Shown here piece by piece: positions 19,161 through 35,086 of a stretch of 64,000 bases of DNA (position 1 is its first letter; each line of letters starts with the position of its first letter). Origin of the DNA: an uncultured Cohaesibacter sp. (GTDB lineage Bacteria > Pseudomonadota > Alphaproteobacteria > Rhizobiales > Cohaesibacteraceae); contig NZ_OY762905.1 of NCBI RefSeq assembly GCF_963666525.1, positions 2,586,001 through 2,650,000 on the forward strand. Direction: 5' to 3'. Both the position numbers and the translations under genes were made by a program. The notes under the pieces are model-generated. The model was not told the DNA's origin and ran no database searches. It saw only the letters and a list, made by a program, of their open reading frames with translations.

Positions 19161-21020
19161 TCAGCAGGAGCTATCTGCGATAACAATCCGGAAGCCGTTT
19201 CCACGCCAGAATCCGGCTGGTTCGAGCGATCCGCGATAGACACCGTTCGCTTTCCACGCCGGGCTGGAGAAACAGCCACCGCGCAAGACGCGGCGGATGG
19301 TGCCAGCCGCATCTAAAGCCTCACGACCATCATCAGTCCATGGAAAGGCATAATCCGGTTTGGACATGTCTGGTCCCCAGAGTGTGGTGCACCATTCCCA
19401 TGCCTGTCCCGCCATATCCTGACACCCGATAGGCGATGCCCCTTCGGGGAACAGGCCTACGGTGCAGATGTCGTTGTAACCGGCTTCTTCGCTGTTGCTA
19501 TGTTCAGCGGCCCATTCGTCCCCCCAGGGATAAAGAAGACCCTGAGGCCCGCGGGACGCAGCTTCCCATTCTCGCTCGGTCGGCAGGCGGACGATGTCTG
19601 TCGCACCAATTTTTCCTGAGCGGCGCCAACGGCTGGTCAACCATAGACAATAGGCCCGCGCATCATGCCAGGTGAGATCTGTTGCCGGGTGGCTTGAACG
19701 GGATGGCGTGCGCCCGTTTTCGCTCTTCCACTCACGGCCGGTTTCCTTCACAAAACGCAGATAGGCAGCGTTGGTGACGGGATAGATACCGATCTGGACT
19801 GTGCTGGCGACCGGCGCTTCATGTGCCGGCTCGGAATTCGGATGGATTGTGCCTCCCATCGGGTAGGTTCCGTCCGGCAAGGACACAAGCCCTTCCAGAT
19901 CGCGAGGATCGCCAAGACGGGCCATGGCTTCGCCAGCAAGACGCCGTAGCCCCAAAGGAGCCCCTCCAACCTTGATGGCGTGAGCCAGCGCTGCGGCTAC
20001 GGAGCGCGCCTGCGGGCCACCTGGCTTTGCCAACGCACTGGCTGCGAGCAAAACGGCCAGATCGGAAGAGGACGTTGTCAGACCTGTGACAAGTTTCGAT
20101 ATGCGGGCATCAGCCGGATCAAGGCCCTCACAGAACAAGGCCAGCGGTGTCAACCAGTCATCGAGGTCTGAGCTGACCAGTGACAGGCAGTCCTCTACAT
20201 TGAGCCGGTCTAGAGTGGAAGCTCGGTGATAGTTCAGTGTCCATTCATCCTTACACAGATCAGCAAGGGAGCGCAGGGAAAGCACCTTGCCAGCCTGAAC
20301 AGACTGGCCCCACAGACCGGCAAGGACGTAAGGCTCTCCCTCCAGAGGGTCGACAAGCCCTTGCGCTTTGACAGCCTTTTCGCGGTCTCCTCGCGCAAGT
20401 CCCAAAAGGCCATAGGCTGGCAAGGCTGCGGGGCGCCTCAGCCGATCAAAGGCATGGCTCTCACACAGAACGAGCAGTCGCACATGAGTCATTGCTTGAA
20501 CTTTGCCAAACAGCTCGGCAAGCAGCGCTTCGGGGTCTGAGCTTTTATCAAGGTTGTCGAGGATGAAAAGAGTGCTGCCGGTGCGGCCTTCAGCCAAGGA
20601 TGACAAAGCTTCAATCGGAGCGTCTTCGGCGCTGCTCATCACCGCGCTCATGTCTTCAAGGCTTATCTCCTGAGCCAGCCTGTCTTCTGCACCATTGCGG
20701 TAGGCTGGTGCAAGAAACCCCGGCATCTCCTGATTTTGGCTCTCTGCCCGTGGCGTGGACAGGAAAGCCGTGAGGGAACGGGCAAAGCTGCTCTTGCCAC
20801 TCCCATCGGGAGCATGGAGCAAGAGATGGGGGAACATGGAAACCATTTCGGCTGCCGTGAAATGGATCGGTAGCCGCACGGCTCCCTCTTCTTCCGAGAA
20901 GGCTCGCAGGCCCTTCGCTTCCTTGTCCTCATGCGTGTAACTGGCAAGCAAGGGGAGCATGAGGCTGCGCATGTTCTTCGCCGGATCGGTTTGGGCCGTA
21001 CCCTTCACAACCTCGCTCAT
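19161..21020 (-). CDS. P-loop NTPase fused to FGE/SUMF1-like domain
   Basis: A 619-residue fusion of unknown function. Residues ~60-260 look like a P-loop NTPase (Walker-A-like HAPDGSGKSS at 70-79, whose first glycine is Ala; Walker-B-like LFILDNLD at 151-158). Residues ~260-380 are helical and HEAT-like. Residues ~385-615 form a formylglycine-generating-enzyme-type C-lectin fold (LPDGTYPMGG, IYPVTNAAYLRFV, VRLPTEREWEAAS, PWGDEW, RVLRGGCFSSPAWKANGVYR, GNGFRI). The two copper-binding cysteines of true FGE are not at their expected spacing, so it is probably not a sulfatase activator. The ATG overlaps the stop of the VOC gene (ATGA), implying coupled translation. It is the last gene of a peptide-type ABC operon. 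Confidence 0.75.
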   Translation of the reverse strand: MSEVVKGTAQTDPAKNMRSLMLPLLASYTHEDKEAKGLRAFSEEEGAVRLPIHFTAAEMVSMFPHLLLHAPDGSGKSSFARSLTAFLSTPRAESQNQEMPGFLAPAYRNGAEDRLAQEISLEDMSAVMSSAEDAPIEALSSLAEGRTGSTLFILDNLDKSSDPEALLAELFGKVQAMTHVRLLVLCESHAFDRLRRPAALPAYGLLGLARGDREKAVKAQGLVDPLEGEPYVLAGLWGQSVQAGKVLSLRSLADLCKDEWTLNYHRASTLDRLNVEDCLSLVSSDLDDWLTPLALFCEGLDPADARISKLVTGLTTSSSDLAVLLAASALAKPGGPQARSVAAALAHAIKVGGAPLGLRRLAGEAMARLGDPRDLEGLVSLPDGTYPMGGTIHPNSEPAHEAPVASTVQIGIYPVTNAAYLRFVKETGREWKSENGRTPSRSSHPATDLTWHDARAYCLWLTSRWRRSGKIGATDIVRLPTEREWEAASRGPQGLLYPWGDEWAAEHSNSEEAGYNDICTVGLFPEGASPIGCQDMAGQAWEWCTTLWGPDMSKPDYAFPWTDDGREALDAAGTIRRVLRGGCFSSPAWKANGVYRGSLEPAGFWRGNGFRIVIADSSC

Positions 21021-21412
21021 TTGAACAGCTTCGCCACGTCTGGATTGTGGAAGCGCTGAATTTCGATGGCGTAGCCAGCAGGATCCTCGAAGAAGAAATG
21101 CTCGCAAAAGGTACCACGCAGCAGATCAGACAAACCAGCAACGCCCTTTGCCTTCAGATCTTCGTGCCATTTGGCTACATCTTCGGAGACGATGGTCAGA
21201 AGGGTCGCACTCTTTGGCTGATGCTTCAGATGCCCCTTGTTGCCATCGACGATACCGAAATAGGCGTTGCCTGCAATCCGGTAGATGCGTGCGAGTCCCT
21301 GATCGAGAACGAGCTCGAAGCCCAGAACCTCTTCATAGAATGGGGCAACCGCATGGATATCGGGATAATAATAGAAAGTGATCGCACATTCCTTGGGAAG
21401 GGTTGTGGACAT
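21017..21412 (-). CDS. VOC-superfamily (glyoxalase/bleomycin-resistance fold) protein
   Basis: A 131-residue single-domain VOC protein: AITFYYYPDIHAVAPFYEEV and VLGFELVLDQG at the start, FEDPAGYAIEIQRF at the end. The metal-ligand Glu in the last strand (IEIQ) is kept, while the first ligand position is not clearly His or Gln. It could be a lyase, an isomerase or a small-molecule-binding protein. It lies between the transporter-type genes and the FGE-like gene, so it may act on the imported compound. An 81-bp gap with a bulged hairpin (around 21454-21480) separates it from the upstream gene. Confidence 0.8.
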   Translation of the reverse strand: MSTTLPKECAITFYYYPDIHAVAPFYEEVLGFELVLDQGLARIYRIAGNAYFGIVDGNKGHLKHQPKSATLLTIVSEDVAKWHEDLKAKGVAGLSDLLRGTFCEHFFFEDPAGYAIEIQRFHNPDVAKLFK

Positions 21413-21493
21413 CAGTGAACCTCGTTTGTCTTGGAAATTCTGTTTATCGCGGACGGACCCCAGTCTTTTGCGGGGTTCCGTGGGAAAGCTTGA

Positions 21494-22855
21494 TCATGAG
21501 ACACGTAATATTCCCTTGGGATCAAGAGAGTAGCCAGACACACCCGGAACATGCGCCATACAGTCCACCGGATGGAAGAGATAGAGCCAATGTGGGTGGG
21601 CGCCAAGATGTGCCAGTATTTTGGCATAGGCATCAGCGCGTTTCCCGTCATCCAGCGTGATGCGGGCCTTGGCAAAGAGCGTATCTGCGGTGTCGTCTTC
21701 GACCCCCTGCCACCAGACCGCACGGGACTGGCTGGAGATCTTGTCATCCAGCACGCGAAATGTGCTATGAGGGGAGCTGTCGAAGATGGCCAGATCGCCC
21801 ATCTGCTTGTTCCCCAACTGGCGCGCATAGTCCGGGCGATCAGTTGCGACATCAATGGCGACGTCAAAGCCAACTGCACGGAGACTTTCAGCAACGAACG
21901 CTGCGATCTCCGGAGCCCGCTCAGGCATGAACAGCGGCGTGCGCAGAGTTATGTCCCGCCCTGTCTGTGATGCTGACACTATTCGGGCAGCACGCTCGGG
22001 GTCGAAAGGGATGGGGTCAATGCCTGCGGCCATGCCATTGTGGAAGGGGCTGACGATCGTGCTGGCAGGAATAGCAAGCCCGCCCATCACCTCGGAGATC
22101 AACCGCTGCCGGTTGATGGCCAGATTGGCAGCAAGCCGCATGGCCGGGTCTCGAAACACCCCTTGCCGACCATTCATATAGGCAATCACCGACAGGGTCG
22201 TTGCCTGCTCATGCCATATGAAGCCATCAAGCGACCGACGTGGCTCTTCCAGTCGATCGAGATGGGTTGCAACCTGAATGGCGCCGGATTGCAACGCCTG
22301 CAGTCTGTCTTCCGCTTTCGGCATGGCGATGCATTGCAGCTGGCGCCCATCGGCATGATGCAGAATTACGCTCTGGTGCTTTTCGAACGAAGCAACGCGC
22401 CAGGGCCCGGTTCCGATTGTCGGGGTTCCATCCGGGGTGAGTTTGGGCAGATAGAATTCTGACAGGATTTCTGGCAGATCGGGAAATGGCTGCGGTGTCC
22501 TGATGGTCAGCTGCCGGCCGTCAGCCAAGATCTCGGCACCATCCAGATAGCGAGCATAGGACCATGGCATCCCGAACATGTCACGGGCATTGAGAATGGT
22601 CTTGATGAAAGACTTGGCATGTTCAGACTCAACCGGACAACCATCGTGATAGATGGCTCCATCCCTGAGCGTAAGGGTCCAGAGGCATCCGTCGGACGAG
22701 AGGGAAAACCGATCGAACAGGCCAGCCTTGGCGACCCCGCGTTCCCAGCGCAGCATGGGTTCCAGCACGAGAGATTTCAGCGTCAGGATACTGGCGTCGT
22801 CTGTGACACGATCCGGCGGCAGGAAGTCCACTTTTTCCAGTGCTAGCTTATCCAT
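21494..22855 (-). CDS. Family-5 solute-binding-protein-like polypeptide without signal peptide
   Basis: 453 residues with the fold signatures of peptide/nickel ABC binding proteins (VLEPMLRWERG, WTLTLRDGAIYHDGCPVESE, TIGTGPWRVASFEKHQ, AANLAINRQRLISEVMGG). The native start appears to be ATG 22855, two bases after the stop of the permease gene. From there the protein begins MDKLALEKVDFLPPDRV, with no hydrophobic leader. The upstream in-frame extension lies inside the permease gene and does not supply one. It is either cytoplasmic, as in SgrR-type sensors, or exported in another way. A full-length exported binding protein is already encoded in this operon at 24852. Confidence 0.75.
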   Translation of the reverse strand: MDKLALEKVDFLPPDRVTDDASILTLKSLVLEPMLRWERGVAKAGLFDRFSLSSDGCLWTLTLRDGAIYHDGCPVESEHAKSFIKTILNARDMFGMPWSYARYLDGAEILADGRQLTIRTPQPFPDLPEILSEFYLPKLTPDGTPTIGTGPWRVASFEKHQSVILHHADGRQLQCIAMPKAEDRLQALQSGAIQVATHLDRLEEPRRSLDGFIWHEQATTLSVIAYMNGRQGVFRDPAMRLAANLAINRQRLISEVMGGLAIPASTIVSPFHNGMAAGIDPIPFDPERAARIVSASQTGRDITLRTPLFMPERAPEIAAFVAESLRAVGFDVAIDVATDRPDYARQLGNKQMGDLAIFDSSPHSTFRVLDDKISSQSRAVWWQGVEDDTADTLFAKARITLDDGKRADAYAKILAHLGAHPHWLYLFHPVDCMAHVPGVSGYSLDPKGILRVS

Positions 22856-22857
22856 CG

Positions 22858-23691
22858 TTACGAGGCGCTCCTGCGGCGCGGGTTGAACCAGTCGGCAAGG
22901 GAATCCCCAATCAGGTTGAAGGACAGAACTGTGAGAAGAATGGCGAACCCCGGCCCGAGCGTTGTCCAGGGACTGGATCGGACATAGACCAGATTGGCCG
23001 AGACATCTGCGCCCCACTCCGGCAGCGGTGGCTGTGCACCAAGACCCAAAAATCCTAACGCCGAAGTCTGCAGGATGGCACTGCCGAAGCTCAAGGAGGC
23101 CTGCACCAGCAAAGGCCCTATGGAATTGATCAGAATATAACGGAACAGGATGCGTGGGCGCGGTAAACCAAGAGAGTTGGCAGCTTCAACATAAAGCCGT
23201 GAGGATACTGTCAGCGCCTGACTGCGCGCCACACGGGCGAATTGCGGGGCCAGTGTAATGGCAACGGCAATCATGGCGTTTTGCAGGTTGGGTCCGAATG
23301 CTGCCGCAAGTGCAATGGCCAGCACCAGCGCCGGAAACGAAAGGATCGCATCAACCAGGCGCATGATGATCACGTCGACAGCCCCCCCGACAAATCCGGC
23401 AAACAGGCCGAAGCTGACCCCGACTGCAAAAGCCAGCGCCACGACAACAATACCGATGGCCAGAGTGTAGCGGCCGCCGTGCAGAATGCGGGAAAACATG
23501 TCGCGGCCAAAGTTGTCGGTCCCCAGAACATGCTCAAGCGAGGGAGCCTGCAGCTTGGCTGTCATATCGATCTGTAGCGGAGACGTTACGAAAAGCGGGC
23601 CGACAATCACGGCAAGCAGCATGACGATGAGAACGATCAGACCAGCCGTTGCCAGCGTGTTGTTTCTGAGGAAAAGAGACAAATCTTTCAC
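22858..23691 (-). CDS. Peptide-type ABC transporter permease (DppC/GsiD family)
   Basis: 277-residue inner-membrane permease with six predicted helices, the DppC N-terminal module (HVLGTDNFGRDMFSRILHGG) and the EAA-type loop that docks on the ATPase (YVEAANSLGLPRPRILFRYI). The start is GTG 23691 with AAGGAG at ideal spacing; that AAGGAG overlaps the stop of the preceding permease gene. The 5'-extended frame lies inside that gene. It pairs with the DppB-type permease upstream and the fused ATPase of the divergent operon. Confidence 0.92.
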   Translation of the reverse strand: MKDLSLFLRNNTLATAGLIVLIVMLLAVIVGPLFVTSPLQIDMTAKLQAPSLEHVLGTDNFGRDMFSRILHGGRYTLAIGIVVVALAFAVGVSFGLFAGFVGGAVDVIIMRLVDAILSFPALVLAIALAAAFGPNLQNAMIAVAITLAPQFARVARSQALTVSSRLYVEAANSLGLPRPRILFRYILINSIGPLLVQASLSFGSAILQTSALGFLGLGAQPPLPEWGADVSANLVYVRSSPWTTLGPGFAILLTVLSFNLIGDSLADWFNPRRRSAS

Positions 23692-23701
23692 GGTCGGCTC
23701 C

Positions 23702-24712
23702 TTAGTTGATCTTCCGGCGCACGCGCGGATCAAGCACCGCATAAAGCACGTCAACCAGCAATGAGGTCAGCATGAACATCAGAGCAAACACCAGGGTTGC
23801 TCCCTGAATGACCGGATAGTCACGGTTGCGAATGGCCTCAAACATATATCTGCCGATTCCGGGCCAGGAAAAAATGGTCTCGGTCAGAATGGCGCCGCCC
23901 AGCATCTCAGCGAACTTGAGGCCGACGACGGTGATGGCGGGCAGCAGGGAATTGCGCAGAGCGTGGCGATAGACGACATCGTGGTATGTCAGGCCCTTGG
24001 CGCGGGCTGTGCGCACAAAGTCTTCATCCAGCACTTCAAGCATGCTTGAGCGTATGAAGCGCCCGAGCGTTGCGGCGAGAAAGGCGGCAAGCACTGTGGT
24101 CGGCAGGATCATATGAGTGATTGCGCTCATGACGGCCCCCTGCTCGCCAGAAAGCCATGCATCGATGATGGAAAAACCGGTCACTCGATCGACAAAGAGA
24201 TAGGAAGACAGGCGACCCGAAACCGGCAACCAGCCGAGCCATGTCGCAAAGACCAGCTGAAGCAACAGCGCAAGAAGGAATGCGGGCATCGAAACACCAG
24301 TCAGCGAGATCACGCGCACGGCATGGTCAAAGCCGGAATTGGCGCGCGTCGCCGAGAAAGCGCCAATGGGAATGCCAATGATGATGGCCAGCAGAACTGC
24401 ACCGATGGAGATTTCTAGCGTTGCAGGCAGACGGATCAGGATTTCATCGAGAACTGGCTCACCGGTCTTGAGTGAAACGCCGAGGTCTCCTTGCAACAGT
24501 CCCAAGAGATAGTGCCAGAATTGGAGCAAGGCGGGCTGATCAAGGTTGAGCTGATCCCTCAGGGCGTCAATCTGCGCATTGGTTGCACCTGGGCCCAGAA
24601 GCGTCACGGCCGGGTCACCGGGAATGATGCGCACCAGCGAGAAAACGATAATCAGCACAAGAAACAGCACCGGTATCAGTGACAGCAATCGTCGCACGAG
24701 AAATGCAAACAT
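23702..24712 (-). CDS. Peptide-type ABC transporter permease (DppB/GsiC family)
   Basis: 336 residues, six predicted transmembrane helices. The first helix is at MFAFLVRRLLSLIPVLFLVL, and a large periplasmic loop contains GDLGVSLKTGEPVLDEI. The EAA loop is FVRTARAKGLTYHDVVYRHA, and the C-terminus is DPRVRRKIN, all typical of DppB. ATG 24712 follows AAGGTG. It lies between the binding-protein gene and the DppC-type gene. Confidence 0.93.
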   Translation of the reverse strand: MFAFLVRRLLSLIPVLFLVLIIVFSLVRIIPGDPAVTLLGPGATNAQIDALRDQLNLDQPALLQFWHYLLGLLQGDLGVSLKTGEPVLDEILIRLPATLEISIGAVLLAIIIGIPIGAFSATRANSGFDHAVRVISLTGVSMPAFLLALLLQLVFATWLGWLPVSGRLSSYLFVDRVTGFSIIDAWLSGEQGAVMSAITHMILPTTVLAAFLAATLGRFIRSSMLEVLDEDFVRTARAKGLTYHDVVYRHALRNSLLPAITVVGLKFAEMLGGAILTETIFSWPGIGRYMFEAIRNRDYPVIQGATLVFALMFMLTSLLVDVLYAVLDPRVRRKIN

Positions 24713-24851: not shown

Positions 24852-26453
24852 CTATTTCTTGGAAACGCTCCAGTATTCATTGAGCGGAGGGGCAGAGTTG
24901 ATGACGAGGCCATCGACATTGGAGCGTGCAAACACGATCAGCTTAGGGCTGAACAGGTAGGCCGCAGGGGTATGGTCAACCAACTGTTTCTGGATTTCAC
25001 CATACAGTGCCTTGCGGGCAGCCATGTCCGGCTCCTGTTGGGCTTTGGTGATCAGCGCATCAAGTTCCTTGTTTTCCGGCATCCGCATGGTCATGGCGGT
25101 ATCTTTCAGCGAAGACAGGTATCCGATGGTGATGTGGGCATCGGGGTCATTGTACCAAGGCTGACGACCATCCAGGGCGATGTCCCAATCACCCGCGACG
25201 TGCAGGGCGCGATAGCTCGGGAATTCGGTCTGGGCGATTTCGGTCTTCACGCCGACGTCAGCCAGATTGGCCTGAATGTAAGTTGCCAGATTGCCCCACA
25301 GGGTGCCCTGGAAAGAATATAGCTTGAGGCTCAGTTCGCCGGGCTTGTAACCTGCCTCGGCAAGAAGGCTCTTGGCCAGTTCCGGGTCATACTTGGGTGC
25401 AAGGTCGGTGATGGCCGGATCATAGGCCCAGCTGTTGGAGGTCAACGGCCCATAGACGCGGGCGGCGGTGTTGTCGAGCACACCGGCGATCAGACCGTCA
25501 TAATCGATCGCATGGGCAAGTGCTTGACGTACACGCTTGTCGGCCACCGGAGAATCCGCCTTGGAGTTGTTGAACTCGAACTGGCGAATGATCTGGGATG
25601 GCGTTTCAATGATGTTGATATCTGGATTGTCAGCGAAGGCTTTCAGCTCCTCGGAAGGGATGGCAGAAAGCTGGGCCTGCTGCTGCACAACATCCACGCC
25701 GCCATTTTCCAGCTCGAGGCGACGGGTGGAGGCCTCTGGAATGATGCGATAGATGATGCGATCCAGTTTTGGGGCACCACGGAAATAATCCGGATTGGCA
25801 TCCAGGACAACGCGGGTATCGGCTTCATAGGCGCGGAAGGCGAACGGGCCGGTGCCGACCGGGTGGTTGGCGAAATCATCGCCATATTTCTTGACCGCTG
25901 CCGGACTGACGATTGCGGACTGCGGCTGCGCCAGGATGGACATGAAGGCCTGATAGGGTTCCTTCAGCTTGATCACGACCGTTTCACTGTTCGGGGTCTC
26001 AATGCTGTCAATCATGCCAAGGCTTGCCTTGACATAAGGATTGAGCTCAAGCGTGCGTTCGAGTGAAAATTTCACAGAAGCGGCATCAAAGTCTGAACCG
26101 TCTTGAAACTTGACATTGTCACGCAGATCGAAAGTGAAGGTCTTGCCATCTTCAGAGATGGTCCAGCTGTCGGACAGGCGTCCTTCCAACTGGGAAAAGT
26201 CGGGAGCCTTCCATGCGACGAGGGTATCAAAGACGTTTAGGATGATTTCACTGCCAATCGGCTCGGCCTTGTTTGCGCCGGGCTCAAGGCTGGCGGGGTC
26301 GGACGGTACCGCCACGACAAGGGTCTTGTTAGCTTGTGCGTTGGCAGAAGCGGTGAATGCAGGAATGAAGCTCGTGGCAGGCATGAAAGTGGCCGCGGTT
26401 ATCGCCATCGCGGCCCCTGATAGCGCACCGAAGAGATTTCGGGTCAGGCTCAT
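24852..26453 (-). CDS. ABC transporter substrate-binding protein, peptide/opine family 5
   Basis: Periplasmic receptor of 533 residues. The signal peptide ends around SANAQANK. The family-5 hallmarks are SDSWTISEDGKTFTFDLRDN and VKFQDGSDFDAASVKFSLER, NHPVGTGPFAF, RVRQALAHAIDYDGLI and a C-terminal PPLNEYWSVSKK. Family members bind di- and oligopeptides, glutathione, nickel or opines; the ligand here is unknown, and the context suggests a cyclic amide. GAGGAG precedes the ATG. It is the first gene of a leftward operon whose ATPase is encoded in the divergent operon. Confidence 0.93.
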   Translation of the reverse strand: MSLTRNLFGALSGAAMAITAATFMPATSFIPAFTASANAQANKTLVVAVPSDPASLEPGANKAEPIGSEIILNVFDTLVAWKAPDFSQLEGRLSDSWTISEDGKTFTFDLRDNVKFQDGSDFDAASVKFSLERTLELNPYVKASLGMIDSIETPNSETVVIKLKEPYQAFMSILAQPQSAIVSPAAVKKYGDDFANHPVGTGPFAFRAYEADTRVVLDANPDYFRGAPKLDRIIYRIIPEASTRRLELENGGVDVVQQQAQLSAIPSEELKAFADNPDINIIETPSQIIRQFEFNNSKADSPVADKRVRQALAHAIDYDGLIAGVLDNTAARVYGPLTSNSWAYDPAITDLAPKYDPELAKSLLAEAGYKPGELSLKLYSFQGTLWGNLATYIQANLADVGVKTEIAQTEFPSYRALHVAGDWDIALDGRQPWYNDPDAHITIGYLSSLKDTAMTMRMPENKELDALITKAQQEPDMAARKALYGEIQKQLVDHTPAAYLFSPKLIVFARSNVDGLVINSAPPLNEYWSVSKK

Positions 26454-26531
26454 GAAGAACTCCTCTGTTGGTCTACTGGTTTGGTTGGTGTTGATCTTGT
26501 AATTTGAAAAACTCGCTTTATTTCATACTGG

Positions 26532-26542
26532 TGATATATCTA
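26532..26542 (-). promoter_or_regulatory. Candidate operator TGATATATCTA upstream of the ABC operon
   Basis: An 11-bp sequence about 80 bp before the binding-protein gene. Its exact reverse complement occurs at 27538-27548, in front of the other arm of the cluster. The core GATATATC is palindromic, a shape common among GntR/FCD operators, and a GntR regulator is encoded in the cluster. Assignment to that regulator is inference. Confidence 0.45.
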
Positions 26543-26654: not shown

Positions 26655-27518
26655 CTATGGCTGAGCGCCGCGTCGTACCGGGCGTTGGGGGTCATTTATC
26701 CAGTGTGACCAGGAACCCGGATACATTGCAGCCTCGATTCCCACCGCCGCCAGAGCCAGAACCTCGTGTGCAGCCGACATTCCGGCCCCGCAATAGACGC
26801 CAACCGGCTTTGTTCCATCAACCCCAAGTCCGATAAAGAGCTCGATCAGCGTCTCGCTGTCGGTGAATGCCCCGGGATCTGTTAGCGTGTCATGCGTCGG
26901 GGCACAGATTGCTCCGGGGATGTGGCCCCGCTTCGGATCGCCGCCCACTTGTGGACCGCCGATATAGTTGGGCCTGATGCGAGCATCCAGCAAAACGCCA
27001 TTCTGCGCGAGCTGCTCCGCATTCTCTGGGCCAAACTCAGGCATGTGACCAGGCGTTATAGATGTCGTGGTTTTCGGTGGTTTTGCGGCGGATTGTACTG
27101 TTTCAAAGCCGGCTGAGAGCCAAGCGGGCAAGCCTCCATCCAAAACTCGCACATCTTTGAAGCCTGCCCATTTGAGCACCCACCAGGCCCGTGCTGCGGT
27201 CATGGAACGATCGCCATCATACACAACAATGGTGCGGTCATGGGTTAGCCCCCAGTACCGGACTGCCTCCTGCAAGTCGCTCACCTCGGGTAGTGGGCGA
27301 GCTCCCTTTCGGGGATCTTCCGGAGCCTGAAAATCCCTGTAGGCTTCAGTCTCTACGGCGTTGGGAATATAGAGCCCTTGACGGGAGTCCTGGCCCGTGT
27401 AGGGGTTGACTGATTGCACCACGAGAATGTGAGGCGCAGAGGCGCTGTCCATCATCGTTCTCAGTTCGTTTGGTGTCAGGAGAACCTTGCGCCGCGTTTC
27501 TTTGTCTTTACTGAACAT
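26655..27518 (-). CDS. Thiosulfate/3-mercaptopyruvate-type sulfurtransferase (double rhodanese domain)
   Basis: 287 residues, two rhodanese domains. The second domain has the active-site loop VYCGAGMSAAHEVLAL (catalytic Cys243); the first is the inactive partner (VYDGDRSMTAARAWWVLKWA without cysteine). Family enzymes move sulfane sulfur from 3-mercaptopyruvate or thiosulfate to a thiol or cyanide. No signal peptide is seen, so it acts in the cytoplasm. The CGxG(V/M)(S/T)A loop is closer to mercaptopyruvate enzymes. It lies between the two arms of the cluster and is read divergently from the ABC ATPase gene, which links sulfur transfer to the pathway. Confidence 0.9.
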   Translation of the reverse strand: MFSKDKETRRKVLLTPNELRTMMDSASAPHILVVQSVNPYTGQDSRQGLYIPNAVETEAYRDFQAPEDPRKGARPLPEVSDLQEAVRYWGLTHDRTIVVYDGDRSMTAARAWWVLKWAGFKDVRVLDGGLPAWLSAGFETVQSAAKPPKTTTSITPGHMPEFGPENAEQLAQNGVLLDARIRPNYIGGPQVGGDPKRGHIPGAICAPTHDTLTDPGAFTDSETLIELFIGLGVDGTKPVGVYCGAGMSAAHEVLALAAVGIEAAMYPGSWSHWINDPQRPVRRGAQP

Positions 27519-27548: not shown

Positions 27549-27562
27549 CGAAATTTTTTTAT

Positions 27563-27645: not shown

Positions 27646-29439
27646 ATGTCTGTCATTTCGATCCGCAACCTTTCGGCTGCCTTCAAAACCCCCAATGGCT
27701 ACAGGACCGTTGTCGATGGCATCGACCTCGATATCGAGTCCGGTCAGACGGTAGCAGTTGTTGGCGAGTCCGGTTCAGGAAAAAGCGTTACGGCGCTTTC
27801 AGTCATGGGGCTTCTGCCACGTAACGTGACGCGCATTTCCGGAGAAGTTGAATTTGGTGGCAGGAACCTTCTCGCTCTCTCGGAAGAGGAGATGCTGGAA
27901 GTGCGCGGCAATGAAATTGCGATGATTTTTCAGGAGCCAATGACGTCGCTCAACCCGGTCATGACGGTCGGTCAGCAGATTGCCGAACCCCTGATTCGTC
28001 ATCGTGGCCTGCCTAGGCAACAGGCGCTGAAGAAAGCCATCCGCCTGATGGATCGCGTTCGCATCCCCGATGCCGTCAAACGCGCCCATGAATATCCGCA
28101 CGAAATGTCCGGGGGAATGTTGCAGCGAGTCATGATTGCAACAGCTCTTACGTGCTCTCCAAGGTTGCTGATTGCCGATGAGCCGACCACAGCATTAGAT
28201 GTGACAATTCAAGCCCAGATTCTCGAGTTGATCAAGGAAATACAGCAAGAATCGAACATGGGGGTAATGTTCATTACCCATGACATGGGTGTCGTTGCCG
28301 AAATTGCAGATCGGACACTGGTGATGTACCGCTCCAAGATGATCGAGCAGGGTTCGACCGAAGAAATTTTCTTGCGGCCAAAGGCGGACTATAGCCGCGA
28401 GTTGCTGGCCGCCGCGCCGCGTCTCGGTGATTTGGGAGACAGCCCGCTGCCTTGTCCCTATCCGACCAAGGATGGTACGATTGAAGAGGCTATTGATACG
28501 GTCGATCGCGAGTCCGCTCCGCTTCTGACGGTCAAAAATCTCTCGACCCGCTTTGACATCAAGAAAGGGGTGCTCGGACGTGTCCATGCACGCGTGCATG
28601 CCGTGGAGAATGTTTCGTTTGACATCCGCAAGGGCGAGACCCTGTCCCTCGTCGGAGAGTCAGGTTGCGGCAAGTCGACCACCGGGCGATCGATTTTGCA
28701 GCTCGTCAAACCCGTCCAAGGCACTGTCTTGCTAGAAGGCAAGGACGTCATGGTGCTGAAAAAGAAAGAACTCCTGCAGCTGCGGCAATCCATGCAGATG
28801 ATCTTTCAGGATCCCTTTTCAAGTCTCAACCCACGCATGCGTATCGGGGAAGCGATCGCCGAACCGATGATTGCTCACGGTATGGCGACTAGGTCAGAGG
28901 CTGCTGAGCGGGTAGCCCAACTGCTCGAACAAGTCGGGCTTGATCCGGATATGGCTCCACGCTGGCCACATGAATTCTCTGGCGGGCAGCGTCAGCGGAT
29001 CGCTATCGCCAGAGCACTCGGCTTGCGCCCGCGCCTGATTGTCGCCGATGAGGCTGTTTCCGCCCTCGATGTGACCATCAAGGCGCAAGTCGTCAACCTG
29101 ATGATGAGGCTGCAAAAGGAAATGGGGCTGGCCTATCTATTTATCAGCCATGACATGGCTGTCGTTGAGCGCATCAGCCACCGGGTCGCCGTCATGCTGC
29201 TGGGTGAGATTGTCGAGATCGGTCCCCGTGATCAGATATTCGCCAACCCGGTCCATCCTTACACCCGCCGTCTTCTCTCAGCAGTACCGGAACCAGATCC
29301 AGCCCGGCGCCACATGTCGCGTAATATCGAACTCCGTGAACTCAAAAGCCCCATTTTTCCCGCAGACCATGTCCCCTACGACCGCCATTACGATAATGTC
29401 GGCCCCGGCCATTTCGTGATGCGAGACCAAACCAACTAA
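27646..29439 (+). CDS. Fused DppD-DppF-type ABC ATPase (GsiA-like)
   Basis: 597 residues with two complete ATP-binding cassettes. Walker A motifs are GESGSGKSV and GESGCGKST; signature motifs are MSGGMLQRVMIA and FSGGQRQRIAIA; Walker B motifs are LLIADEPTTALD and LIVADEAVSALD. Each cassette has the oligopeptide C-terminal extension (HPYTRRLLSAVPEPDP in the second). It energises the permeases of the divergent operon, because no other ATPase is encoded there. It is the first gene of a run of six closely spaced metabolic and regulatory genes. Confidence 0.95.
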   Translation: MSVISIRNLSAAFKTPNGYRTVVDGIDLDIESGQTVAVVGESGSGKSVTALSVMGLLPRNVTRISGEVEFGGRNLLALSEEEMLEVRGNEIAMIFQEPMTSLNPVMTVGQQIAEPLIRHRGLPRQQALKKAIRLMDRVRIPDAVKRAHEYPHEMSGGMLQRVMIATALTCSPRLLIADEPTTALDVTIQAQILELIKEIQQESNMGVMFITHDMGVVAEIADRTLVMYRSKMIEQGSTEEIFLRPKADYSRELLAAAPRLGDLGDSPLPCPYPTKDGTIEEAIDTVDRESAPLLTVKNLSTRFDIKKGVLGRVHARVHAVENVSFDIRKGETLSLVGESGCGKSTTGRSILQLVKPVQGTVLLEGKDVMVLKKKELLQLRQSMQMIFQDPFSSLNPRMRIGEAIAEPMIAHGMATRSEAAERVAQLLEQVGLDPDMAPRWPHEFSGGQRQRIAIARALGLRPRLIVADEAVSALDVTIKAQVVNLMMRLQKEMGLAYLFISHDMAVVERISHRVAVMLLGEIVEIGPRDQIFANPVHPYTRRLLSAVPEPDPARRHMSRNIELRELKSPIFPADHVPYDRHYDNVGPGHFVMRDQTN

Positions 29440-29453: not shown

Positions 29454-30119
29454 ATGTCACGCATCATCGTTCTCAATCCAAACAGTTCCCGCAAGGTAAC
29501 AGACCGTATTGCAACCAGTCTTATGGGTCTGGCAAAAACGACCAGCCACGAAATCATCTGCGACCGCCTGATCAACGCGCCATTAGGCATTGAAACGGAT
29601 GCAGATGTCGCAACAGTCGGCCCAATGGTCGTGGACTATGCCTCCAATATGACTGGCAATATTCTTGTCGCCGCCTGCTTCTCAGATCCGGGCGTAGAGA
29701 CGATCCGACAGCAGGCTTTACCTGTTCCGGTCATCGGAATCTCCGAGGCGGGCTATTACTCAGCGCTACAGCTTGGGCGCAAATTCGGCGTAATTTCGCT
29801 CGGCCCATCCTCTATTGCCCGCCATGCAGAACGTATCCGGTTTCTCGGCTTGGAAGAGCGGCTGGCCGGGGATCTGTCTGCCGACCTGTCCGTCGAAGAA
29901 TCCGGTGACCCGGGCTTGTCTCGCGATAAGGTAATCGAGGCGGGCAAACGACTTGCCAAAGACTTCGGAGCTGACGTGCTCATACTTGGTTGTGCCGGGA
30001 TGGGAGCGCAGCGTCCCTTTCTGCAGGAGGCAATAGGCTTGCCTGTGGTCGATCCGGTACAGGCCGGTGTGTCAGCCGCTCTCAATTTTCTAAATTTGAA
30101 CTATAATATAAAGGCTTGA
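29454..30119 (+). CDS. Asp/Glu/hydantoin racemase family protein
   Basis: 221 residues with the two-cysteine acid-base pair of the family: Cys75 in VAACFSDPG and Cys180 in LILGCAGMG, plus the N-terminal LNPNSS phosphate or carboxylate loop. Homologues racemise 5-substituted hydantoins, allantoin or aspartate. Placement directly before a cyclic-amidohydrolase gene is the classical layout of hydantoin utilisation. It lies 14 bp after the ATPase gene and 4 bp before the hydrolase gene. Confidence 0.9.
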   Translation: MSRIIVLNPNSSRKVTDRIATSLMGLAKTTSHEIICDRLINAPLGIETDADVATVGPMVVDYASNMTGNILVAACFSDPGVETIRQQALPVPVIGISEAGYYSALQLGRKFGVISLGPSSIARHAERIRFLGLEERLAGDLSADLSVEESGDPGLSRDKVIEAGKRLAKDFGADVLILGCAGMGAQRPFLQEAIGLPVVDPVQAGVSAALNFLNLNYNIKA

Positions 30120-30123: not shown

Positions 30124-31485
30124 ATGGATCTTCTCCTCCGTGGAACGATTGTTACACCCGTGGCCCCGCTGCCAGGTGGGTGGATTGCCATTCAAGGTGA
30201 CAAGATTGCCGCCATTGGTGATGCAACCCAAACTCCGCCAGAAGCGAACAAGGTTGTCGACTATGGTGAAAACCTGATCCTCCCCGGCGTTATTGACGGT
30301 CAGACCCACGCGACCAGCGCACAGGGGCTTGTTGGCATCGCCGATACCACGCGCTCCGCCATTGCCGGCGGCGTCACGACCCTTGTCGATATGCCATACG
30401 ATAGCCCCGAACCGCTGGACCGGCCAGAACGACTTGAGGCAAAAAGTGCAGCGATTGCCCAATATGGCTATGCCGACATGGCGCTATACGGCACCGTGAC
30501 AAAAGACAGTGGCGTCCAGCATATCAGGTCCCTGATTGATGGCGGCGTCGCGGCCTTTAAGATTTCATCGTTTGAAAGTTCTCCCACTCGTTTTCCCCGC
30601 ATTGGCGCCGACCTGATGCTTGACATCATGGAAGAGCTGGCACCAACCGATGTGCCTCTTGGCCTGCACAATGAGGATCAGGAAATCGTGCTTGATCGCA
30701 TGGATCGTGCACGCAAGGCCGGAGAGAATGGTATTTCCGCGCACTCCAACTCCCGCCCACCTGCAGCAGAATTGGCAGCAACAGCTCAGTTCCTTGCACT
30801 GGCTCAGGCAACCGGAGCCCATGCCCATCCAGTGCATCTGTCCTGTGGCGAGGGCTTTGAAATCGTTCGAGCCTTTGCTGATCTGGGCGTCCGTGCAACC
30901 GGGGAAACCTGCGTGCATTATCTGTGGTTCGATGCCGCTCGCGATGGCACGCGCCTTGGTCCGCGCATGAAGGTCAACCCGCCGATCCGCCCGGGTGAAA
31001 CCGATGCCCTCTGGGACGCAGTGATGGAAGGGGACGTGGCTTTCACTTCCTCGGATCATTCCAGCTGGCCAATCGATGGTAAACTCACAGACTCGATTTT
31101 TGATGCCGGAGCCGGAGTACCGGGCCTTGAAACTCTGTTGCCAGCCTTCTTTACAGCGGCAGAGGCTCGCGGTATGGACGCAGCGATGCTGACCGCCCAA
31201 CAGCTTTCCGAGCGGCCAGCCCGTTTCTTTGGTATTGCCGATCGCAAGGGATCCATTCAGGTAGGGCAGGATGCCGATCTGGTCATTCTTGAACAGGGTG
31301 CGTTCATCTGGGATGAAGCATCGGCACGCGATGGTCTTTGCTGGTCTCCGTTCCATGGCGAATGCTTCACTGTCCGTGTTGCTTCCACCTATCTGCGCGG
31401 CACGCTCGGCTTTGATGGCCAGACCATAACCGCCAAAGAAGGCTCCGGCCGCTTTGTGAAACGCGGCTCTGCTCGCTGGTACTAA
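30124..31485 (+). CDS. Cyclic amidohydrolase (dihydroorotase/allantoinase/hydantoinase type) with altered metal site
   Basis: 453 residues. The expected metal ligands are the carboxylated Lys146 (GVAAFKISSF), His182 (GLHNED), His238 (HPVHLSCGEG) and Asp311 (FTSSDHSSW), all present. The first HxH motif reads DGQTHATS, so the first ligand is Gln60 and only His62 remains. Family enzymes open cyclic amide rings (hydantoin, allantoin, dihydropyrimidine). The Gln could mean a mononuclear site or an unusual substrate. Together with the racemase it implies stereoselective ring opening of an imported heterocycle. Confidence 0.88.
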   Translation: MDLLLRGTIVTPVAPLPGGWIAIQGDKIAAIGDATQTPPEANKVVDYGENLILPGVIDGQTHATSAQGLVGIADTTRSAIAGGVTTLVDMPYDSPEPLDRPERLEAKSAAIAQYGYADMALYGTVTKDSGVQHIRSLIDGGVAAFKISSFESSPTRFPRIGADLMLDIMEELAPTDVPLGLHNEDQEIVLDRMDRARKAGENGISAHSNSRPPAAELAATAQFLALAQATGAHAHPVHLSCGEGFEIVRAFADLGVRATGETCVHYLWFDAARDGTRLGPRMKVNPPIRPGETDALWDAVMEGDVAFTSSDHSSWPIDGKLTDSIFDAGAGVPGLETLLPAFFTAAEARGMDAAMLTAQQLSERPARFFGIADRKGSIQVGQDADLVILEQGAFIWDEASARDGLCWSPFHGECFTVRVASTYLRGTLGFDGQTITAKEGSGRFVKRGSARWY

Positions 31486-31500: not shown

Positions 31501-32427
31501 ATGGCTCTTCTAACTTCCGACACCAAGGGTGTCTTCTCGATCTCGGTCACGCCCTTTGACGAACAGGGTGCTATCGATTTTGACAGTCTTGATCGGGTGA
31601 CAGACTTCTATCTGGAAAAGGGGTCAACGGGTATCACCGTGCTGGGCATGATGGGCGAAGCACCCAAGATGACGCAGGCTGAAGCCGTTGACATCGCCGG
31701 ACGCGTGATCAAGCGCGCCAATGGCGCTCCCATCGTTGTTGGCGTCTCGGCGCCGGGGCTTGCTGCCATCTCCGATTTGTCAAAGACGGTGATGGATCTG
31801 GGGGCTGCCGGTGTTATGATCGCCCCTCCGGGCAACCTCAAGACCAACGAGCAGATCATCGCCTATTATGCCAATGCCTGCGAAGCGGCCGGGGCCGGAG
31901 TGCCGGTGGTCCTGCAGGACTTTCCGTTGAGCACCGGGGTCAATATCTCGACCGATACCCTTGGCACGATCATCGACCAGAACGAGCAGATCGTCATGCT
32001 CAAGCATGAAGACTGGCCGGGTCTGGAGAAGATCAGTGCCGTGCGTGAGGCCGAGAAAGCCGGTCGCCGTCGCATTTCGATCCTGTGTGGCAACGGCGCG
32101 CTGTTCCTGCCCGAATCCATGGCACGTGGCGCCAATGGTGCCATGACGGGCTTTGCCTATATCGAAATGCTGCGCGATATCGTGGCCTTTGCCGAAAAGG
32201 GCGACATGGACAAGGCACAGGATATCTATGATGCCTATCTGCCGCTCGTCTGTTATGAACAGCAGCCGGGGCTTGGCCTTGCCGTTCGCAAATATGTGTT
32301 GCAGAAACGGGGCGTGATCGCCTCCGAAGCGATGCGCAAACCGGGCAAGGGGCTGACGGCTGCGGCCCGCAGTGAGGTCGATCGCATCATTGATCGACAG
32401 GAAAATAGATTGAAGGAGCTTGGCTGA
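31501..32427 (+). CDS. DapA/NAL-family Schiff-base lyase or synthase
   Basis: 308-residue TIM-barrel protein. The Schiff-base lysine is Lys168 (IVMLKHEDWPG) and the carboxylate-binding loop is LGMMGEAPKMT. The catalytic tyrosine found in DapA (LYNVP) is replaced by Gln139-Asp140 (VVLQDFPLSTG), so it is not a true dihydrodipicolinate synthase. Relatives with such changes are aldolases, dehydratases or decarboxylases of keto acids. AAGGACTCTCC precedes the ATG. The stop overlaps the next ATG by one base. Confidence 0.87.
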   Translation: MALLTSDTKGVFSISVTPFDEQGAIDFDSLDRVTDFYLEKGSTGITVLGMMGEAPKMTQAEAVDIAGRVIKRANGAPIVVGVSAPGLAAISDLSKTVMDLGAAGVMIAPPGNLKTNEQIIAYYANACEAAGAGVPVVLQDFPLSTGVNISTDTLGTIIDQNEQIVMLKHEDWPGLEKISAVREAEKAGRRRISILCGNGALFLPESMARGANGAMTGFAYIEMLRDIVAFAEKGDMDKAQDIYDAYLPLVCYEQQPGLGLAVRKYVLQKRGVIASEAMRKPGKGLTAAARSEVDRIIDRQENRLKELG

Positions 32428-33197
32428 TGGATTTCGGTCTGAAAGGAAAACGCGCACTCGTGTTGGGTGCCAGTCGTGGCCTTGGTGCCGCCTCGGCCAT
32501 CCTGCTGGCCGAGGAAGGCGCTGACGTCATTGCTGCCTCCCGGTCCGGAGCGTTGCCTGCTGGCTTGCCCGAGAGCCTCAAGGACAAGGTAAGCACCATC
32601 AAGCTTGATCTGGCAGATGCCGGATCGGTGAGCGATGTGATTGCGTTTCTTGGTGAGACGCCGGTGGACATTCTGGTCAACAACTGTGGTGGACCGGCTG
32701 CCGGTCCGGCCAAGGGCCAGAGTGTGGAAGCCTGGATTGCCGCCTTCAACGCCATGGCAACGCCAATCTTCGCGATTACCGACAAGGCGCTGGAAGCGAT
32801 GACCGACAAGGGCTGGGGCCGCGTGGTGACCATCGGCTCGTCCGGCATCGTCAGCCCCATCCCCAATCTGGCACTGTCCAATGGTGTGCGCGGCGCGATC
32901 GCTGGCTGGTCGAAGACGCTGGCAAGCGAAGTGGCTGCCTCCGGCATTACCGTCAACATGGTACTGCCGGGTCGCATTGCGACGGACCGGCTTGCCGAGC
33001 TTGATGCAGGCAAGGCCAAGAAAAGCGGCCAGTCTGTCGAAGAGGTCAAGGCTGCATCACGCGCAACCATTCCAGCCGCCCGTTATGGCAAGCCGGAAGA
33101 GTTCGGTGCCGTCGTCACCTTCCTGTGCTCGGAACAGGCCAGCTTCATCACCGGCTCGATGATCCGGGTCGATGGCGGCATGATCAAGGGCATGTAA
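32427..33197 (+). CDS. SDR-family oxidoreductase lacking the canonical Tyr/Lys
   Basis: 256 residues. The cofactor loop GASRGLG, NNCGGPAAGP and a C-terminal IRVDGGMIKGM are typical. The usual YxxxK is replaced: the segment reads NLALSNGVRGAIAGWSKTLA, with Leu150 and Val154 at the Tyr and Lys positions; Ser138/139 remains. This fits a known BKR-like subgroup that uses a different residue set, so it may still bind NAD(P) but need not be a standard dehydrogenase. It overlaps both neighbours by one base (TGATG and TAATG), so translation is coupled. Confidence 0.88.
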   Translation: MDFGLKGKRALVLGASRGLGAASAILLAEEGADVIAASRSGALPAGLPESLKDKVSTIKLDLADAGSVSDVIAFLGETPVDILVNNCGGPAAGPAKGQSVEAWIAAFNAMATPIFAITDKALEAMTDKGWGRVVTIGSSGIVSPIPNLALSNGVRGAIAGWSKTLASEVAASGITVNMVLPGRIATDRLAELDAGKAKKSGQSVEEVKAASRATIPAARYGKPEEFGAVVTFLCSEQASFITGSMIRVDGGMIKGM

Positions 33198-34342
33198 TGA
33201 GTACCATAGAAAGCATTGACCGACGCGGGACGGATAGCAACAAGTGGCGGGACGTACCAGAGGGCTATATCCCTCTGCCCGTTGCTGATATGGATTATGC
33301 CACAGATCCTATCATCCTTGAAGCGATCCGGCATCGACTTGAACATCCTGTGCTTGGCTATGGCTCCGCAACTGACACCTTGCGGCAAACGCTGGTCCGC
33401 TATATGGCAGACCAGTTCGGTTGGGTCATCGAACCCGACTGGCTCGTTTTCCTGCCCGGCGTGGAACCGGGCTTCAACATGGCGCTCAATGCCTTCACGA
33501 CGCCCGGACAGACCGTGATGCAGGAGTATCCTGTCTACAAACCGCTGCGGGTCGCTCCTCAAACATGGGGATTGCAGACCGCCGCAGTTTGGCAAGCTCC
33601 TGATGGGAACGGGCGCTGGACGAGCAGCCATGGCCAGCTCTCCGACGCAGCAGCCCGATCAAGCATCATGCTTCTGTGCAATCCGCAAAACCCGACGGGC
33701 CGCGTCTACACCAGGGCTGAGCTGGAAGAACGGATCGCGCTTTGCCTGGAACATGATTTGTTGCTGATTTCCGATGAGATTCACAGCGGCCTCACTCTGG
33801 ATGATCGGCCGCATATTCCTGCCGCATCTCTCGGCAAGGACATCGAGGCCAAATCGGTCACCCTGATGGCGGCCAGCAAGACGTGGAATATCGCCGGTCT
33901 CAAGGCAGCCTTTGCAATTGTACCAGATGCGGACATGCGGGCCCGGTTTGTCGGTGCCAAGATGGGGTTGGTGGATAGCGTCAACATTCTCGGGCTTGCA
34001 GCCATGGAAGCTGCCTACTCCCAGGGCGAGCCTTGGCGACAGGCCGTACGAAACCGTATTGCGAAGAATCGGAATCTCTTCCATAAATTTTTGGACACGC
34101 ATATCTCGAAGGCTCATTCAACGCCAGCTGAGGCCAGCTTTCTTGCTTGGATGGACTTGTCTGCATATGATTTGGGACAACCCGCAGCGAGCTGGCTGCG
34201 GACAAACGTCAAGTTGCTGGTGAGCCCGGGAAGCGATTTTGGTGAGTCTCTGGATAGCTGGATTCGACTGAATTTTGCGTGCTCGGAAGCGCTCCTTACG
34301 GAAGCTCTTGAACGGATGGCAATCGAACTGAAAAACAAATAG
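33197..34342 (+). CDS. PLP-dependent C-S lyase / aminotransferase, PatB/MalY family
   Basis: 381 residues, fold-type I PLP enzyme. The internal aldimine is formed by Lys228 (MAASKTWNIAGLK). The cofactor site has CNPQNPTGRV and ISDEIHSGLTL, and the N-terminal signature is LPVADMDYATDPII. PatB/MalY enzymes cleave the C-S bond of cystathionine-type or S-substituted cysteine substrates to pyruvate, ammonia and a thiol. The start is the ATG overlapping the SDR stop (TAATG); the longer open frame lies inside the SDR gene. It points to a sulfur amino acid, or its S-conjugate, as a pathway intermediate. Confidence 0.9.
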   Translation: MSTIESIDRRGTDSNKWRDVPEGYIPLPVADMDYATDPIILEAIRHRLEHPVLGYGSATDTLRQTLVRYMADQFGWVIEPDWLVFLPGVEPGFNMALNAFTTPGQTVMQEYPVYKPLRVAPQTWGLQTAAVWQAPDGNGRWTSSHGQLSDAAARSSIMLLCNPQNPTGRVYTRAELEERIALCLEHDLLLISDEIHSGLTLDDRPHIPAASLGKDIEAKSVTLMAASKTWNIAGLKAAFAIVPDADMRARFVGAKMGLVDSVNILGLAAMEAAYSQGEPWRQAVRNRIAKNRNLFHKFLDTHISKAHSTPAEASFLAWMDLSAYDLGQPAASWLRTNVKLLVSPGSDFGESLDSWIRLNFACSEALLTEALERMAIELKNK

Positions 34343-34357
34343 CCAGAGGTAGCAGGT

Positions 34358-35086
34358 ATGGCGCGAGCAAAGAGCGCAGCAGCAGACTCCAGTGACAACA
34401 AACGCGCCAGCCAGCGCAACGAAAAAGCGAAGTCCCTCGCCGATCAGGCTTATTGCCAGCTGCGCGAGGACATCATCACTTGCAAGTTGCACCCGGGCAA
34501 TGACTTGAGCGAGCAGGACCTTGCTGAATCTCTCAAGATGAGCAAGACACCGGTCAGAGAAGCGCTGGCCAGGCTCGCCCTTGAAGGTCTTGTCGAGGTA
34601 TTTCCCCGCCGGGGTTACAGGGTTACTCCTGTGACGGTCAAGAGTGTCAATGATGTCTTCACGGTGCGCAAGGCCCTCGAAGGAGTCGCCTGCGAACTTG
34701 CTGCAGTGCGTATGGACGGGAGCGAGATTGATCAGGTAGAGGAGCTGTCTCAGGCGCGCTATATCCCGGGCGAGGAGCCAACGGTTGCGTCCTTCATCAA
34801 GGCCAACAACGCCTTTCACAGCGCCATTGCGGAAGCCTCCCGAGTGCCAAGGCTCAAGCAGTTGATCGACAGCTATCTGGAAGAATCCACCCGCCTGTTC
34901 CATATGGGCGCCGCGGTCCGCGATGTGAACCCGGAAACGATCAAGGATCACGCTCGCATCGTTACCGCTCTGCGAGCACATGATCCGGATGCCGCCCGAG
35001 AAGCCATTCATGAGCATACAGAAAACACGAGGCACGGACTTTTGACAGCGCTTATTTCCGATAGGGAATCCCTGTTGGTACTTTAG
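34358..35086 (+). CDS. GntR-family transcriptional regulator (FCD/FadR subgroup)
   Basis: 242 residues: winged-helix domain at ~25-95 (AYCQLREDIITCKLHPGNDL, LKMSKTPVREALARL, VFPRRGYRVTPV), then an all-helical FCD ligand domain with likely metal ligands (His157-type FHSAIAEAS, HARIVTALRAHD, HEHTENTRHG). These regulators are usually repressors released by a pathway intermediate. As the last gene of the operon it probably controls both arms of the cluster through the TGATATATCTA elements. Confidence 0.92.
   Translation: MARAKSAAADSSDNKRASQRNEKAKSLADQAYCQLREDIITCKLHPGNDLSEQDLAESLKMSKTPVREALARLALEGLVEVFPRRGYRVTPVTVKSVNDVFTVRKALEGVACELAAVRMDGSEIDQVEELSQARYIPGEEPTVASFIKANNAFHSAIAEASRVPRLKQLIDSYLEESTRLFHMGAAVRDVNPETIKDHARIVTALRAHDPDAAREAIHEHTENTRHGLLTALISDRESLLVL

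Follow-up and report, generated by a model that had tools for sequence, protein, structure and literature searches.

The window, a 64,000-nucleotide stretch of one 5.18-Mb contig (NZ_OY762905.1) of an uncultured Cohaesibacter sp., encodes a 14-gene cluster that may serve the import and breakdown of a cyclic amide. The genes form two arms that diverge from a 127-bp gap (27519-27645). The minus-strand arm (19161-27518) encodes an NTPase fused to a formylglycine-generating enzyme (FGE)-type domain, a VOC protein, two solute-binding proteins (SBP1 and SBP2) on either side of two permeases, and a two-domain rhodanese. The plus-strand arm (27646-35086) encodes a double ABC ATPase, a racemase, an amidohydrolase, DapA-like, SDR-like and PatB-like proteins, and a GntR/FCD regulator. 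The first-pass annotation had described a transporter split over two divergent operons together with these enzymes and a GntR regulator; reading frames and family scans of the window recover every gene it named (14 of 14), in order. For five genes the probable start is not that of the longest open reading frame (ORF): the FGE fusion (~21020), SBP2 (22855), permC (~23694), permB (~24712) and PatB (33197).

Table 1. Genes and candidate regulatory sites of the cluster, with positions in the window.
Feature	Position	Strand	Evidence
NTPase (P-loop, AAA_16/NACHT-like) fused to FGE-sulfatase (SUMF1/EgtB/PvdO) domain	19161..21020	-	PF03781, 131.7 bits
VOC/glyoxalase-fold protein	21017..21412	-	PF00903; occurs in clusters of types I and II
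SBP2, the other SBP_bac_5 solute-binding protein; no signal peptide visible, predicted cytoplasmic	21494..22855	-	PF00496
ABC permease, DppC/OppC-like (permC)	22858..23694	-	family scans
ABC permease, DppB/OppB-like (permB)	23702..24712	-	family scans
SBP1, periplasmic SBP_bac_5 solute-binding protein, hydrophobic leader	24852..26453	-	nearest solved chains 5u4o and YliB 1uqw
Weak candidate for a second regulator site (TAGATATATCAC core) in the SBP1-rhodanese interval	26527..26542	-	differs from promoter site at 3 positions, none in its first 12 bases
Two-domain rhodanese/3-mercaptopyruvate-sulfurtransferase-like protein, active loop CGAGMSA	26655..27518	-	PF00581; nearest solved chain 1urh
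Candidate GntR operator TAGATATATCACGAAATTT, divergent promoter	27538..27556	.	site-model match at 27543-27556, best in 64-kb window
GsiA-like ABC transporter ATPase, fusion of two ABC domains	27646..29439	+	family scans
Asp/Glu/hydantoin racemase, both cysteines	29454..30119	+	PF01177, 160.9 bits; nearest 3qvj (putative hydantoin racemase)
ErtD-like cyclic amidohydrolase with metal motif DxQxH + K + H + H + D	30124..31485	+	NF058538, 477.9 bits (cut-off 600)
DapA-superfamily protein, Schiff-base lysine kept	31501..32427	+	family scans; nearest solved 3dz1
SDR-fold protein, SxxxR replacing YxxxK	32427..33197	+	family scans and motif alignment
PatB/MalY-family PLP C-S lyase	33197..34342	+	TIGR04350, 346.8 bits (cut-off 340), scored on longer ORF from 33125
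GntR/FCD transcriptional regulator	34358..35086	+	family scans; divergent from racemase gene in many relatives

Other genomes, too, have the two arms together, as the first-pass annotation had expected of a single system. We compared the best 80 of 197 amidohydrolase matches in one-per-species genomes; the amidohydrolase was thus itself the selection query, and the per-gene identity thresholds were chosen after a first table had been seen. The amidohydrolase is present in all 80 loci, the DapA-like protein in 77, the racemase in 75, GntR in 64 and the SDR-like protein in 47. Rhodanese, PatB and SBP1 are each found in 37, SBP2, both permeases and the VOC protein each in 36, and the ATPase, at a 55% threshold, in 31. 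The FGE fusion is found in 20, many loci ending before its position. Rhodanese and PatB occur together in 36 loci, which we call type I; rhodanese stands alone only in L016, at a contig end, and PatB only in L045. Six of the type I loci lack the ATPase at its threshold. An 11-gene set (VOC, SBP2, permC, permB, SBP1, rhodanese, racemase, amidohydrolase, DapA-like, PatB and GntR) is shared by 34 of the 80 loci, and loci with both arms include members of Martelella, Jiella, Pseudooceanicola, Alloyangia, Rhizobium, Agrobacterium and Devosia.

Plasmids provide a test that is independent of selection by the amidohydrolase, since 72,556 plasmid records were searched gene by gene. Rhodanese (at least 59% identity), PatB (at least 44%) and SBP2 (at least 47%) each occur in eight records, the same eight, and all of these also carry the amidohydrolase. 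The match in Alloyangia CP154653 lies in four pieces under two hypothetical proteins, and the gene may be broken. PatB is unlinked to the cluster on two of the eight plasmids: that of Rhizobium rhizoryzae, where it adjoins a second DapA-like gene, and that of Terrarubrum, where it lies in an apparent S-alkylcysteine operon and so may do a different job.

The system is rare within the order. In a sample of 150 genomes, with the window's own genome included in each count, the amidohydrolase has matches at E 1e-100 in six (four at 56% identity or more, the other two ErtD-like at 41-43%), rhodanese at 1e-70 in one, PatB at 1e-75 in two and SBP2 at 1e-60 in two; three congeners in the sample have none of these four at the cut-offs given. 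On the amidohydrolase tree, type I needs 11 changes, a count inflated by L050, which has two amidohydrolases both labelled type I; the starred branches force at least seven changes, and type II, described below, forms one clade. Repeated exchange or loss of modules seems likely. Gene clusters of such a general kind are common in these bacteria. The linkage of the genes supports the view that the two arms are one conserved unit.

The arms also share a candidate regulatory site. A palindromic site model, ATAYYACGTRRTAT, was learned by expectation-maximisation from 22 GntR-racemase gaps of clusters without the rhodanese arm and was applied to 32 rhodanese-ATPase gaps (31 loci and the window). It exceeds the 99% shuffle level in 23 of the 32 against 0.32 expected, relatedness of the loci being ignored. 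The window's site (score 14.1) is the top place in the 64 kb and falls inside the divergent gap. L128 and L124 also have a full site in the rhodanese-SBP1 interval, and L089, L093, L095 and L106 have one in the GntR-racemase gap; scans of the remaining cluster regions (L087, L094, L096-L098 and L126) gave no site inside the cluster. Two of 13 control loci, L092 and L112, have a place above 11.2, and L112 had been fetched for its resemblance to the pattern. The textbook GntR/FCD palindrome is present in only 8 of 79 gaps. One candidate site is enriched in both arms, and we infer that the GntR protein binds it. L112, elsewhere in the window's own genome, has an operator-like place of 19.2 bits near an ORF that we take from its sequence to be ferredoxin-reductase-like.

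The amidohydrolase is a relative of ErtD, its best-scoring family, and may not itself be an ErtD. DxQxH, the lysine and the last aspartate are kept in 84 of 84 rows (81 relatives, the window and two ErtD-type proteins), all of which have Gln in place of the first ligand of the usual HxH pair. Both metal-motif histidines are present in every variant shown, which make up part of the 84 rows. The cluster protein and ErtD have this metal motif and a DHxSW stretch in common. The amidohydrolase is about 40% identical to proteins in ergothioneine-type (Ert) gene sets, and its relatives reach 45%. In Burkholderia these ~40% relatives are accompanied by a histidine-ammonia-lyase gene, a urocanate hydratase, a second amidohydrolase and a Zn-dependent hydrolase, and in Rhizobium by a urocanate hydratase and a Zn-dependent hydrolase; judging from gene content, both are probably Ert sets. 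Because the amidohydrolase is kin of ErtD and has the DxQxH motif in common with it, a hydantoin-type ring is our best guess for the substrate. The two racemase cysteines are kept in at least 74 and at least 75 of 76 rows. A racemase with both catalytic-type cysteines beside an amidohydrolase nearest to hydantoin-5-propionate amidohydrolase agrees with the ring-opening core that had been proposed. Elsewhere in the genome are five M20-type homologues (31-36%) of the carbamoylase-like gene of L091, a locus with Ert-type genes. At L107, L108 and L109, ErtD-like genes adjoin relatives of the L091 ergothionase-type gene; the proteins alongside are presumably, from their first residues, UbiD (all three loci) and UbiX (L108 and L109), and these sets are possibly a variant ergothioneine route.

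Two genes point to sulfur. The rhodanese loop CGAGMSA does not vary over the 38 rows compared, and PatB has its pyridoxal 5'-phosphate (PLP) lysine in 38 of 38 and scores just above its family cut-off when the longer ORF is used (Table 1). The solved chain nearest to PatB is 5z0q, which we take to be OvoB; OvoA stands beside a PatB relative in none of 289 genomes of the class. A 44% PatB relative in Terrarubrum occurs with a flavin mononucleotide (FMN) monooxygenase, a flavin reductase, LLM proteins, an acetyltransferase and an M20 aminoacylase, and in Pseudonocardia a peptide-type ABC transporter, an LLM oxidoreductase and a member of the acyl-CoA dehydrogenase family lie beside a 42% rhodanese relative. 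Each of the two genes thus has one outlying relative that appears to lie in an organosulfur-type setting. Furthermore, a stand-alone pair of DapA-like and PatB-like genes on the R. rhizoryzae plasmid (L125:7993-10128), about 310 kb from the main cluster, links DapA and PatB to each other. Sulfur chemistry is likely in the pathway, and the substrate itself would probably contain sulfur. On a Pseudonocardia plasmid (L123:9237-20121) the rhodanese relative is unannotated, flanked on one side by a gene annotated as a lysophospholipase and on the other by a peptide-type transporter and flavin-dependent enzymes.

The DapA-like and SDR-like proteins depart from their namesakes. The proton relay of dihydrodipicolinate synthase consists of Thr-Thr and Tyr. 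The DapA-like protein keeps the Schiff-base lysine in at least 76 of 77 rows; all 77 have GMMGE or GIMGE, that is, Met-Met or Ile-Met at the Thr-Thr place, and the nine commonest forms (59 of 77 rows) have Gln at the Tyr place. It reaches 105.4 bits against a TIGR00674 cut-off of 206.15, and its nearest solved relative, 3dz1, is named only as dihydrodipicolinate synthase. The SDR-like protein has SxxxR for YxxxK in its nine commonest forms (38 of 48 rows), as do the solved relatives 2z1n and 5va8. Both proteins lack canonical catalytic residues, and their reactions therefore cannot be read from their names. On a Bradyrhizobium plasmid (L102:2600-10758) the same DapA subfamily occurs with a glutamate-cyclase-domain protein, an alanine racemase, an SDR and RraA, and without the amidohydrolase.

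The NTPase-FGE fusion scores far below the cut-offs of the EgtB, SenA and OvoA models. Formylglycine-generating enzyme has an active-site cysteine pair, which is not seen in the window protein in a comparison of six rows, several of them cut by locus ends. Its identity to ten relatives, several similarly cut, is 23-41% over the alignment. The fusion is perhaps regulatory.

SBP2 seems to stay in the cytoplasm, a point absent from the first-pass annotation. Its N-termini were inspected by eye in 12 of the 36 type I clusters, in 12 of 13 type II clusters and in the Sulfitobacter and Labrenzia clusters, and all of these start at the mature fold. The AlphaFold2 model (mean predicted local distance difference test score 90.4) places the first strand at residue 2, and its Foldseek matches are DppA-, GbpA- and NikA-type binding proteins. 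Among the titles listed in our open-access search, none concerns such a signal-less binding protein. In genome G100 a relative of SBP2 (48-54%; L104:8907-10268), again without a visible signal peptide, lies among genes unmatched to the cluster.

The core is joined to different front ends. Type II clusters have a TRZ/ATZ-type amidohydrolase and a peptide transporter. Types III and IV have amino-acid transporters and D-amino-acid-oxidase-type, creatininase-family, AroM and ectoine-synthase-like proteins, the last below the Pfam cut-off. The type V front end is an amidase, and in Maritalea a minimal core set adjoins a TRAP transporter. There is probably one core that is fed by different modules, which meet at a common kind of ring. 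A recurring core with exchangeable front ends would mark a route to a common intermediate, so that solving one member would help explain the others. In a second cluster family, represented by L088 (6783-25353) and L106, the core is surrounded by amino-acid ABC transporters, AroM, flavin adenine dinucleotide (FAD) oxidoreductases, creatininase-family proteins and a small ectoine-synthase-like protein.

The genes computed here, their linkage, the site enrichment in both arms, the catalytic residues and the lack of a visible signal peptide on SBP2 lead us to propose that the two arms form one inducible system for the import and catabolism of a cyclic amide, probably an organosulfur compound, under GntR/FCD control; we give this an even chance of being right. 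SBP1, the two permeases and the fused ATPase would import the small cyclic amide. The racemase would interconvert the two forms at the acidic carbon of the ring, and the ErtD-like amidohydrolase would open the ring of the form it accepts. The simplest substrate would be a hydantoin or thiohydantoin substituted at position 5, whose opening would yield an N-carbamoyl (or thiocarbamoyl) amino acid, from which an unlinked M20 enzyme could remove the carbamoyl group. The PatB-type PLP enzyme would act on a cysteine-type residue, cleaving its beta C-S bond so that a thiol, pyruvate and ammonia are formed; the sulfur set free would be handed on by the rhodanese. The carbon skeleton would be the target of the DapA-like and SDR-like proteins, SBP2 would be a cytoplasmic binder of either SBP1's ligand or a product, and the regulator encoded at the system's end would exert control. 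These reactions and their order are conjectural, as is carbamoyl removal by an unlinked enzyme. A fuller version, which we hold only tentatively and think somewhat more likely wrong than right, describes an often plasmid-borne and so far undescribed pathway for a hydantoin-like organosulfur compound, in which SBP2 is a cytoplasmic carrier or sensor, perhaps working with the NTPase-FGE protein, and the DapA and SDR folds carry out new reactions on an intermediate fed by several front ends.

Several observations weigh against this proposal. Nine of the 32 rhodanese-ATPase gaps (L007-L012, L016, L018 and L023) fall below the site threshold, among them most of the window's closest relatives. Eight of the nine have an overlapping 12-base pattern, itself drawn partly from the same gap data, at 10 to 12 of 12 positions; it is absent in L023. 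The site was found neither at the unlinked DapA-PatB pair, which we rejected as a second regulon member for that reason, nor in the Terrarubrum PatB region. No carbamoylase (N-carbamoyl amino acid hydrolase) is present among the 14 genes and no flavin monooxygenase in the cluster, and the amidohydrolase is below the cut-offs of both ErtD models (the second, NF058539, gives 356.5 of 650 bits). The SDR-like gene is absent from six and DapA from one of the 36 type I loci. Two genomes of the 150 carry single parts, SBP2 (49%) in one and PatB (43%) in another that is 84% complete, with the other parts unmatched at the cut-offs used. A Streptomyces rhodanese relative (L127) has no recognisable organosulfur neighbours, and further PatB relatives occur in UR115 and in an unannotated region of Aeromonas. 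Finally, the racemase-amidohydrolase-DapA core lacks both rhodanese and PatB in 36 of the 80 loci; the sulfur genes therefore look optional, as a module added to the core, and sulfur need not be part of the ring. The first-pass annotation had combined a C-S lyase with a sulfur heterocycle as substrate: the lyase is supported, in that the PLP enzyme exceeds the PatB C-S lyase cut-off, and the occurrence of the core without the sulfur genes weighs against reading the whole set in terms of a single sulfur heterocycle.

The same absence of sulfur genes around the core would suit an explanation that we consider unlikely, in which the PLP enzyme acts on an alanine that bears a heterocycle and breaks a C-N or another beta bond, the rhodanese serves only for detoxification and the ring is free of sulfur. 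PLP lyases of the MalY/PatB fold vary in the bond they cut, C-N being also possible, and rhizomimosinase performs such a beta-bond cleavage on mimosine. However, of the 38 loci with PatB or rhodanese, 36 have both, the two genes occur on the same eight plasmids, and one outlying relative of each, described above, lies in organosulfur-type surroundings.

A variant of ergothioneine or hydantoin-5-propionate use, with the amidohydrolase as ErtD and the cluster finishing a thiohistidine breakdown begun elsewhere, is in our view decidedly improbable. ErtD is the best family and shares both motifs, the sulfur genes would suit a thio-imidazole, and the genome encodes elsewhere a protein of the histidine-ammonia-lyase type, 50% identical to the corresponding L091 gene, that may be an ordinary HutH. 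Yet the ErtD score misses its cut-off, and a blast of six L091 proteins against the 1524 called genes of the 80 loci gave no relative of the ErtA- or ErtB-type genes at E 1e-10, a remote ErtC relative (25%) in type II only, and ErtE-like genes in three loci. The Ert route is not known to involve PatB, DapA or SDR. Ergothioneine use was rejected as the cluster's identity on the score and the lack of any other Ert gene in the cluster. Ert sets (NF058538 and NF058539) resemble the cluster in the ~40% identical amidohydrolase, its DxQxH/K/D set and the hydantoin-type ring opening to be expected. They differ in having ergothionase, thiourocanate hydratase, ErtC and ErtE, absent from the 14 genes, whereas the cluster adds a racemase, DapA-like and SDR-like proteins, PatB, rhodanese, a peptide-type transporter and a putatively cytoplasmic binding protein. 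A bacterial ergothioneine sulfonate pathway is reportedly the subject of a 2022 title in ACS Catalysis.

Plain peptide or glutathione-type uptake with loosely associated enzymes is very improbable: the transporter parts do resemble Gsi, Dpp and Nik systems, but the enzymes are kept with the transporter across several bacterial families and the candidate operator is common to both arms. Dpp, Opp and Gsi importers likewise combine a binding protein, two permeases and paired ATPase domains; the cluster's transporter differs in being split over divergent operons and in its second binding protein without a visible signal peptide.

The proposed import-and-catabolism system also differs from other known routes. 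The hyu operons encode a racemase, a hydantoinase and a carbamoylase; they share with the cluster a two-cysteine racemase and a cyclic amidohydrolase, whereas the cluster has no carbamoylase, an ErtD-type amidohydrolase, and DapA-like and sulfur genes in addition. The Pseudomonas route for 2-aminothiazoline-4-carboxylate uses a racemase of the same superfamily on a cysteine-derived cyclic substrate. The likeness is by description, not sequence, and no N-carbamoylcysteine hydrolase is recognised in the cluster. Operons for S-alkylcysteine or S-(2-succino)cysteine rely on flavin monooxygenases and N-acetylation, both absent from the cluster; the Terrarubrum set with the 44% PatB relative appears to be of this kind, and L122 is presumably such an operon. 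Our searches of the open-access literature, which lacks most subscription journals, found no published description of the gene set, in line with the first-pass view that no described pathway has it. The available text of PMC6321122 does not deal with this cluster.

If the proposal is true, a sulfur-containing heterocycle joins the compounds degraded by alpha-proteobacteria of roots and the sea, and an amidohydrolase clade whose only named kin here are ErtD enzymes gains a testable role. It would also point to a substrate-binding protein working inside the cell. The linkage, the candidate shared site, the probable ErtD-like chemistry and the predicted cytoplasmic binding protein are solid leads.

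The operon downstream was excluded as part of the cluster, as it has no tblastn match in type I loci. It lies just past the cluster (35459-40605) and encodes a TRAP transporter (DctM/Q/P), a TetR regulator and an Xaa-Pro-dipeptidase-like amidohydrolase.

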